From: Coriobacteriales bacterium
GTDB lineage: Bacteria > Actinomycetota > Coriobacteriia > Coriobacteriales > UBA8131
Direction of reading: 5' to 3'
Length of the DNA stretch: 48,618 bases
NCBI GenBank assembly: GCA_031290175.1
Contig: JAITOC010000031.1
Coordinates: 1 to 48,618, forward strand
Notes under the pieces: generated by a model
The model's database searches: none
The model's input: the letters and a program-made list of their open reading frames with translations, nothing else
Told to the model about the DNA's origin: nothing
Shown here: positions 23,107-25,976 of the stretch, in pieces
How the letters are laid out: each line of letters begins with the position of its first letter
How positions within the stretch are numbered: the stretch's first letter is position 1
Made by a program: the position numbers and the translations under genes

Positions 23107-24204
23107 ATGATGGCGTTCAGCAGACACGACAAGACAGGCATCATGCTTGTCAATACGGGAACGCCCGACGCTCCTACAAAAGACGCGGTCGTTCCCTATC
23201 TCCGACGCTTTCTCATGGATCGCCGTATCGTTGATATTCCCCCTTTCTTTTGGAAGCCGATACTCAACTGGTTTGTCCTGAGGGTGCGCCCGGCAAAGAC
23301 TGTCGCCATCTACAAGCGAATATGGACGGAAGCTGGTTCGCCCTACACCTTGTATTCCGAGGCTCTGGAGCGCGCCCTTGCAGAAAGAGCCTTCGTGTCC
23401 GAGGCCTCCCTGGCACCGGATGCCCCGTATGCTTCTACGTGTGCGTCTGAAGTGGAGGTGCCCCTACTGCAAGGCTGCCATCTCCGCATGGCACAGCGAT
23501 ATGGGAACCCTTCCATCGAATCCGCTATTCGTGATTTCAAGCATCGGGGGATAGAGAAGCTTGTTGTTTTGCCCCTCTATCCACAGGAGGCTCTAGCCAC
23601 TACCGCAAGCGTCCACGATGAATTGCTGATCCAGCTTGGCAAACAGGACTTCCATCCCATGTTGCACTTCATTCAGAACTACTACGACAACGATGCTTAT
23701 AGCGCGGCGGTGGCGGAGAGCATCAGACCCCACCTTGAACAAAAGGATCCCGCCGATACACACCTCGTCTTCTCGTTCCACTCGATCCCTCTCAAGGATC
23801 GGCGCCGGGGCGATCCGTACCCTGAACAGGTGAAAGCAAGCACCACTGCGATAGCCGCAGGTCTCGGGCTTGCCGACGATGCGTGGTCATTCGCCTACCA
23901 ATCCCGTTACGACGACGCACAGCGTTGGCTTGGACCCTTCCTCGACCGGCACGTTGAAGAACTCCTTTTGGCCGGAACCCGCAACCTCGTTATTGCCTGT
24001 CCGGGATTTGCCGTCGATTGCACCGAGACACTGTACGATATCGACTATAACTTCCGCACAGAAATTCGTGCTTTCGCCAAAGCGAGCGGAATAGCCCCCG
24101 AGACCCTCAGTATCTCCTGCGTACCCTGCCTCAACGACAGCCAGGCACACGTTGCTGTGCTCGAACAAGTACTCATAAGCAAAACCTCGCTTCTTGGGAG
24201 CTGA
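23107..24204 (+). CDS. hemH: Ferrochelatase (protoporphyrin or coproporphyrin type)
   Basis: GIMLVNTGTPDAPTKDAVVPYLRRFLMDRRIVDIPPFFW, VFSFHSIPLKDRRRGDPY, ACPGFAVDCTETLYDI. Confidence 0.93.
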   Translation: MMAFSRHDKTGIMLVNTGTPDAPTKDAVVPYLRRFLMDRRIVDIPPFFWKPILNWFVLRVRPAKTVAIYKRIWTEAGSPYTLYSEALERALAERAFVSEASLAPDAPYASTCASEVEVPLLQGCHLRMAQRYGNPSIESAIRDFKHRGIEKLVVLPLYPQEALATTASVHDELLIQLGKQDFHPMLHFIQNYYDNDAYSAAVAESIRPHLEQKDPADTHLVFSFHSIPLKDRRRGDPYPEQVKASTTAIAAGLGLADDAWSFAYQSRYDDAQRWLGPFLDRHVEELLLAGTRNLVIACPGFAVDCTETLYDIDYNFRTEIRAFAKASGIAPETLSISCVPCLNDSQAHVAVLEQVLISKTSLLGS

Positions 24205-24430
24205 AGAGGAAGACTGAGGTTCTATTTGGTTACAGCCCACTGACCCTGTGAACTGTAACTTTATTTGGGGTTCAGGGGGTCAATTCGTCTCCTCGTCTTG
24301 TGGTCGGGCGAGATAATCTCTATACTTAATAGTTCGTCCTCGTTGTATATCCGGCAGCGAGGTTGGTAATTATTGGCCCCGAGACATGTTTTCACGTAGC
24401 GCCCACTGTTGTGCGTTTATGGAGGCGAGC

Positions 24431-24454
24431 ATGACGGACGGGGCCCCTATTTGA
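24431..24454 (+). CDS. Putative micro-ORF MTDGAPI* in rpsA leader
   Basis: ATG 24431 with GGAGG (24421-24425) upstream; TGA 24452-24454 in the loop of the SD-sequestering hairpin; in frame with ATG 24419. Confidence 0.4.
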   Translation: MTDGAPI

Positions 24455-24463
24455 AAGGGGTCC
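24441..24463 (+). promoter_or_regulatory. 8-bp hairpin sequestering the rpsA Shine-Dalgarno
   Basis: GGGCCCCT(24441-24448)/AGGGGTCC(24456-24463), one G-U pair, 7-nt loop; rpsA SD AAAGGGG lies in the 3' arm. Confidence 0.6.
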
Positions 24464-24467
24464 ACTC

Positions 24468-25976
24468 TTGAGTGAGATCAAGAACACTTCAGTCATCATA
24501 CTGGAGGAGGTTGGGGATGAGGAACTCAACCGGCTTATCGACCAGACCATCACAGACTTCGATGAAGGCGATCTGGTCACTGGAACCGTTGTAAAAATTG
24601 AGCATGACGAGGTTCTGCTCGACATCGGTTTTAAGTCCGAAGGTGTTATTCCCGCGCGTGAACTTTCTATTCGGAAGGATCTTGATCCCTCTGAAATCGT
24701 CTCATCTGGCGATAAGATCGAAGCCCTGGTGCTCCAAAAGGAGGACAAGGATGGGCGACTCATTCTCTCAAAGAAACGAGCCGAGTATGAGCGTGCCTGG
24801 ATAGATATTGAAGAGAAGTTTAACTCCGGTGAGAATGTCATCGGCGAGGTCATAGAGGTCGTCAAGGGTGGCCTTATCCTCGACATCGGCCTGCGCGGCT
24901 TCCTGCCCGCATCTTTGGTTGATCTGCGTCGTGTGAAGGATCTCGAGAGCTTCACGGGTGAGCAGATAGAGGCTCGCGTTATCGAGATGGATCGCAATCG
25001 CAATAATGTTGTGCTCTCTCGCCGCGTCGTGCTGGAAGAAGGTCGCAAGAGCGAGCGCAATGAGATACTCGAAAAACTCGCCAAGGGTATGCGCCTCAAG
25101 GGCAGCGTCTCATCCATCGTCGACTTCGGTGCCTTTGTCGATCTTGGCGGCATAGACGGTCTCGTCCACATCAGCGAGCTTTCTTGGAACCACGTAAGCC
25201 ATCCGTCAGAGGTTGTCAAGGTTGGCGATGAGGTTGAGGTCGAGGTGCTTGAGGTCGAGCTCGACCGCGAGCGTATCTCCCTTGGTTTGAAGCAGACCAC
25301 CGAGGATCCATGGCGTCAGCTCGTCAAGAACTACCCGATTGGCACCATCATTGAAGGCAAGGTGACAAAGCTCGTGACCTTTGGCTCCTTTGTTGAGCTT
25401 GGTGATAATATCGAAGGCCTGGTTCATATCTCTGAGATGGCTGGTAAGCATATCGAGTCTCCCGCACAGGTCGTGCATGTTGGCAATACGGTGCATGTCA
25501 AGGTCATGGACATCGACCCCGAGCGTCGTCGTATCTCCCTCTCCATGAAGGCTGCGGCTGAGACCCTCGGTATTGAGATTGAGGTTGCCGAGCCGGATCC
25601 CAACATGCCGAAGCCCAAGCCCAAGACGCGCAAAGACAAGGACGACGGCGAGATTGACGATGTCGAAGGTGAAGCTCCCGAGACAGATGCCGAAGAGGTA
25701 GCGGACGACGAGGCTCCGAACGAGGAAGCTCCCATTGAGGAGACCGTTACCGAGGAAGCCACAGCCGAGGAAGCCACAGAAGCGGCGGTTGAGGAAACAC
25801 CCGACAAGGCAGTTGCCGTAGCTCCCGTAGAGGAGCTTGCTGAGGCTGCTGCTGAAGAGGTCGTAGAGTCCGAAGAGGCTCCAGCCGAAGAAGAGGCACC
25901 AGCGGTCAAGGAAGAAACCCCTGACGTAGAGGCGGAAGAGACTTCCGCAGAGGAAGAGTCCGCTGCCAAAGCATAA
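24468..25976 (+). CDS. rpsA: 30S ribosomal protein S1 (four S1 domains) with long acidic C-terminal tail
   Basis: Repeated S1 motifs GLILDIGLRGFLPASL, VDFGAFVDLGGIDGLVHISELSW, FGSFVELGDNIEGLVHISEM; TTG start. Confidence 0.95.
   Translation: MSEIKNTSVIILEEVGDEELNRLIDQTITDFDEGDLVTGTVVKIEHDEVLLDIGFKSEGVIPARELSIRKDLDPSEIVSSGDKIEALVLQKEDKDGRLILSKKRAEYERAWIDIEEKFNSGENVIGEVIEVVKGGLILDIGLRGFLPASLVDLRRVKDLESFTGEQIEARVIEMDRNRNNVVLSRRVVLEEGRKSERNEILEKLAKGMRLKGSVSSIVDFGAFVDLGGIDGLVHISELSWNHVSHPSEVVKVGDEVEVEVLEVELDRERISLGLKQTTEDPWRQLVKNYPIGTIIEGKVTKLVTFGSFVELGDNIEGLVHISEMAGKHIESPAQVVHVGNTVHVKVMDIDPERRRISLSMKAAAETLGIEIEVAEPDPNMPKPKPKTRKDKDDGEIDDVEGEAPETDAEEVADDEAPNEEAPIEETVTEEATAEEATEAAVEETPDKAVAVAPVEELAEAAAEEVVESEEAPAEEEAPAVKEETPDVEAEETSAEEESAAKA

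Follow-up and report, generated by a model that had tools for sequence, protein, structure and literature searches.

In a review (PMC10931766), the gamma-proteobacteria are the only group for which autogenous control of ribosomal protein S1 is described, with an rpsA leader that has no strong Shine-Dalgarno (SD) sequence; in E. coli, whose leader is without a canonical SD, adding one abolishes control. Eckert and Weinberg (2020) reported 20 ribosomal-protein leader (r-leader) candidates, including an L31 leader in Coriobacteria, and no S1 leader is among the r-leaders named in the text of that paper (PMC7247131). Here we analysed a window of 48,618 nt (the whole stretch of DNA under study, contig C71 of a 1.78 Mb Coriobacteriia draft genome) whose rpsA gene is preceded by an apparently undescribed leader. 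This leader shares with the gamma-proteobacterial (E. coli) system its place in the translation-initiation region, a structured 5' leader and S1 as the effector, here presumed, but it comes from a different phylum and has a strong SD, GAAAGGGG, that a hairpin hides, together with an upstream strand that competes with the hairpin. The SD is complementary to the class anti-SD, unlike that of the E. coli type, and the view of a first-pass annotation of this DNA that the arrangement differs from the E. coli S1 leader is thereby supported.

The rpsA gene (positions 24468-25976; this and all features below are on the forward strand) starts with TTG, as in 51 of 83 class leaders, and encodes a 502-aa product with four S1 domains and a long acidic tail, whose top NCBIfam matches are without exception to 30S ribosomal protein S1. 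The Ala/Glu-rich C-terminal tail (24468 frame, 25600-25976) is long in the window family, where S1 open frames are mostly ~440-670 aa vs ~390-450 aa in most other families. The upstream gene, ending at 24204, appears from its translation to encode a ferrochelatase-like protein, and by eye an inverted repeat that ends in a T-rich stretch (GTTACAG..CTGTAAC TTTATTT) comes after it. A putative rpsA promoter lies at 24298-24327, with TTGTGG (24298-24303) and TATACT (24322-24327) separated by an 18-nt spacer; TTGTGA-18-TATAMT stands at the equivalent place, by eye, in the three near relatives L008, L010 and L012. A consensus promoter scan, which requires TTGACA-like hexamers, did not return TTGTGG-18-TATACT, as its first hexamer has little in common with TTGACA. 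Transcription would most likely start near 24334, 5' of all leader elements, so that the hairpin and the short open reading frame discussed below would both lie wholly within the transcript; a start downstream of 24441, which the annotation had named as fatal to its proposal, is thus not what the putative promoter predicts.

The SD-sequestering hairpin (24441-24463) consists of arm b, GGGCCCCT (24441-24448), the loop ATTTGAA (24449-24455) and arm c, AGGGGTCC (24456-24463), which form eight pairs including one G.U, and direct reading places it where the annotation had put it, over the SD of the TTG-started gene. The SD itself (24453-24460) is complementary, with one G.U, to the class 16S 3' end CCUCCUUUC, taken from L225 and L226. 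The stem is kept in relatives, as the annotation's proposal would require: the SD GGGG is able to pair fully with an upstream C-rich arm in 81/83 non-redundant and 150/152 total Coriobacteriia rpsA leaders, and this arm sits 6-18 nt upstream of the SD G's. The arm-b positions b+2 and b+3, for which pairing is possible only with arm c and not with element a (see below), are C in 83/83 and C or T in 81/83 leaders, respectively. Being so conserved, the hairpin is far beyond chance. No covariation is detectable for it, since there is hardly any variation in its columns and the SD strand does not change, and both covariation and swap tests are uninformative for a hairpin that varies so little; its support is the conservation of the SD-pairing arm.

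A second conserved element, GGCCCCGAGACATGTTT (24375-24391), lies upstream of the hairpin; the annotation has neither this element nor the long-range stem that it forms, the putative promoter or the 5' hairpin P0 (see below). It belongs to conserved element a (24367-24391; TAATTATTGGCCCCGAGACATGTTT), which holds the 5' strands of two stems, P1 (24375-24381) and P2 (24385-24391); the class consensus is CTGTTGGCCCCCGAGACATGTT and the window block, TTGGCCCCGAGACATGTTT, is ~65 nt upstream. The 3' strands lie within 24427-24445, GAGCATG (24427-24433) for P2 and CGGGGCC (24439-24445) for P1. P2 (CAUGUUU:GAGCAUG) is a long-range stem whose 3' strand stands just before arm b, and P1 (GGCCCCG:CGGGGCC) joins element a to the same arm that otherwise hides the SD. 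P1 and the SD hairpin are mutually exclusive, arm b being common to both. A variable middle separates the P1/P2 strands, the stretches CTGTNGG and GAGA are conserved and unpaired, and the covariance model matches the window leader at 24367-24479 with 92.9 bits.

The covariation that the annotation had proposed as a check was found for P1+P2; for the SD-hiding hairpin, which hardly varies, there was none. On alignment A2 (86 rows), 89% of P1+P2 cells are paired, and 37 cells are double-changed vs 12.9 +/- 2.8 on shuffling (0/500) and at most 13 with partners slid, a count that leans towards P1/P2 because A2 is fitted to that structure. Covariation counts from the MAFFT alignment A1 by itself were not significant, and the near set varies too little to decide. 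An alignment-free swap test, in which each species' element a was paired with the arm region of every other species, gave -19.6 kcal/mol for native duplexes vs -18.4 kcal/mol for swapped ones (0/5000 permutations), with -9.9 for a control region, and native duplexes were again the stronger when four clades were tested one by one (5 to 56 of 5000). The signal lies mainly in P2; P1 alone shows none in this test and varies too little for such testing. Single compensations in P1 were seen by eye, namely GGACCU:AGGUCC (L105), GGUCC:GGACC (L013), CCGGA:UCCGG (L174) and GGCCCCAAG:CUUGGGGUC (L033), together with the individual compensations CAUAUUGG:CCAAUGUG (L068) and CGAGUAA:UUAUUCG (L096). In many Eggerthellaceae, P1 contains a C x U mismatch or forms only in a shifted register, which tells against it.

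The leader is restricted to the class Coriobacteriia, of which nearly all members carry it just 5' of rpsA. Covariance model R1 found it in 273/300 class genomes and 260/272 high-quality ones, with about one match each, and it stands upstream of rpsA, its only linked gene, with few exceptions among the class rpsA genes inspected. In family f14, rpsA lacks the leader in two genomes (L187/L200 and L188/L201), apparently through loss within the class. Outside the class, a phylum search with covariance model R2 gave marginal matches only (E 0.02-0.09, mostly short), 22 rpsA upstream regions from other classes held nothing similar on inspection, and the leader was not found in phage records. Rfam 15 (4227 covariance models) gave no credible match, the weak ones being far below gathering scores, so that the leader falls in no known Rfam family; one of these, to CRISPR-DR16 (E 0.45), falls beyond the leader in locus L150. 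No S1 leader in Coriobacteriia was found in the open-access literature, the scope of the search. The leader shares with r-leaders its character of a class-restricted structured RNA 5' of one ribosomal protein gene, with covariation and sequestration of the SD or start. Its placement upstream of a ribosomal protein gene is consistent and its 5' UTR structure is conserved, with covariation in P1+P2 on the structure-fitted A2. In conservation, covariation and linkage to its gene it matches a ribosomal-protein leader, for which binding and repression by the encoded protein, here putatively S1, is the defining biochemical trait.

When P1 or the hairpin was enforced in turn, the two ensemble energies differed by a mean of -0.65 kcal/mol (sd 2.16; 78 leaders), and in 63/78 leaders the two states were within 3 kcal/mol on total energies of ~-19 to -80, a near-equal stability that is partly built in, since arm b belongs to both helices. 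Prior to transcription of arm c the computed median probability of P1 is 0.93. With more coding sequence the window fold gives 0.98 for the hairpin and 0.006 for P1, a strong preference for the OFF state that tells against balanced folds. The kinetic default would then be an exposed SD and the relaxed state a hidden one, an order inferred from the computed folds. We consider it somewhat better than an even chance that this class-wide structured S1 mRNA leader is a two-state translational switch with S1 as its most likely ligand. In the ON state, element a would pair first, during transcription, with the P2 3' strand and arm b (P1+P2), leaving the SD arm c partnerless; in the OFF state, element a would be captured and arm b would pair with arm c, burying the SD. 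The most likely captor would be free S1, which binds single strands and has four S1 domains, and the outcome would be autogenous repression. The occurrence of both folds in cells, the direction of switching and S1 as the ligand are inferred parts of this scheme. Like translational riboswitches and anti-SD/anti-anti-SD switches, the leader has two exclusive helices with a common arm, one of which hides the SD; it differs from riboswitches in having only a long-range two-helix element without a compact aptamer-like core, and in that the controlled gene encodes a ribosomal protein. The annotation's interpretation is partly supported: the SD-sequestering hairpin and probable control of S1 translation stand, whilst translation of a micro-ORF as the switch is not supported.

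According to that proposal, ribosomes on a seven-codon micro-ORF would melt the hairpin, terminate in its loop, and either pass on to the rpsA SD or lay it open. The components are real in the window: the micro-ORF (MTDGAPI*, 24431-24454) has its ATG at 24431, a GGAGG at 24421-24425 with 5-nt spacing and its TGA (24452-24454) in the loop, all as annotated, and overlaps of stop and start of the TTGA or TTGAGTGA kind occur in some relatives. However, an ATG at this place is present in 61/83 non-redundant leaders and missing from 22 (3 with GTG instead), its frames relative to rpsA (0/1/2) are 17/20/24, the lengths run from 1 to 36 codons with five ATG-stop cases, and an SD-like 4-mer precedes the ATG in only 5/61; a micro-ORF with some SD is confined to the window and a few nearest relatives. 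The ATG is moreover part of the covarying stem P2, and in the window is predicted to be paired (unpaired probability 0.01-0.02), and the GGAGG, within GGAGGCGA, can be aligned by eye with the TGTAGGCGA element that other families have. Stops near the rpsA start arise because the TTGA(GTGA) sequence creates them, about two thirds being expected by chance; this context at the start (24468 in the window) gives stop codons in both other frames. Conservation of the micro-ORF, the check that the annotation had suggested, thus goes against it, as neither start, SD, frame nor length is kept, and coupling of this kind is very improbable as the general mechanism. Erm-type leader-peptide coupling also has a short ORF ahead of an SD-hiding hairpin, but here the ORF has no conserved start, SD, frame or peptide and its start codon lies inside a conserved stem. 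The micro-ORF is probably incidental to the leader; coupling through it may operate in the window's closest relatives, the conserved function lying elsewhere.

Two further readings keep the two helices. The same switch might answer to another signal, such as another ribosomal component, a small molecule, an sRNA or temperature, given that the conserved unpaired CTGTNGG and GAGA, and the copies of ACCTGTAGGCGACGGA repeated in other families, are suggestive of specific recognition. Against this, the leader occurs about once per genome and is linked to rpsA, which is the usual sign of autogenous ribosomal-protein control (an argument made in PMC7247131), and we hold a signal other than S1 to be unlikely, if still the weightiest of the alternatives. 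The leader might also be static, its structure fixing a constant translation rate and mRNA stability without regulated switching. E. coli S1 can unfold structured leaders on the ribosome, which would favour such a role. Element a, however, can pair with the SD-hiding arm, and the class as a whole keeps the a:b stem as well as those arm-b positions for which arm c is the only possible partner; a constant structure would not need both, and a static leader is therefore improbable. We thus favour a class-specific S1 leader that probably switches SD exposure autogenously. A class-wide leader of this kind in Actinomycetota, working through a strong SD and two mutually exclusive helices, would show that evolution has arrived at a separate RNA-based route to S1 homeostasis. 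Culturable Slackia, Adlercreutzia or Collinsella, or a heterologous reporter, would allow the proposed switch to be tested directly.

In the variable middle, many families that lie beyond the window's order have 1-3 copies of ACCTGTAGGCGACGGA. In L148-L173, L190 and L191 these copies lie between element a and the P2 3' strand, spaced ~15-50 nt, and in those genomes they cluster at the rpsA leader. Element a (CTGTNGGC) resembles a further degenerate copy. In r-leaders the binding site often, though not always, resembles the site of the protein on rRNA. The likeness of the repeats to 16S rRNA is weak: AGGCGACGA occurs also in the 16S of G103 and is absent from those of G058 and G033, with no longer match. 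A rather doubtful reading, covering families outside the window's order, is that S1 reads the repeated CUGUNGGC..CGA (up to 4 per leader including element a), matched by its four S1 domains, and that binding of the element-a copy would free arm b to close the SD. If true, CUGUNGGC..CGA would be a sequence-specific S1 operator, for a protein thought to have little sequence preference.

Transcription attenuation was also considered and rejected, arm c being followed, by eye, by ACTCTTGAG without a T-run; a scan reported a single terminator-like site, at 24351-24366. Directly after the expected transcription start, predicted folds give a 5' hairpin, P0 (24338-24362; CCTCGTTGT/GCAGCGAGG), and a stable fold at this place is common in relatives despite a lack of sequence conservation there (mean z -1.6 relative to mononucleotide shuffles, 56/83 below -1). 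At this position, where the rpsA mRNA is expected to begin, P0 is possibly a 5' stem that protects the mRNA.
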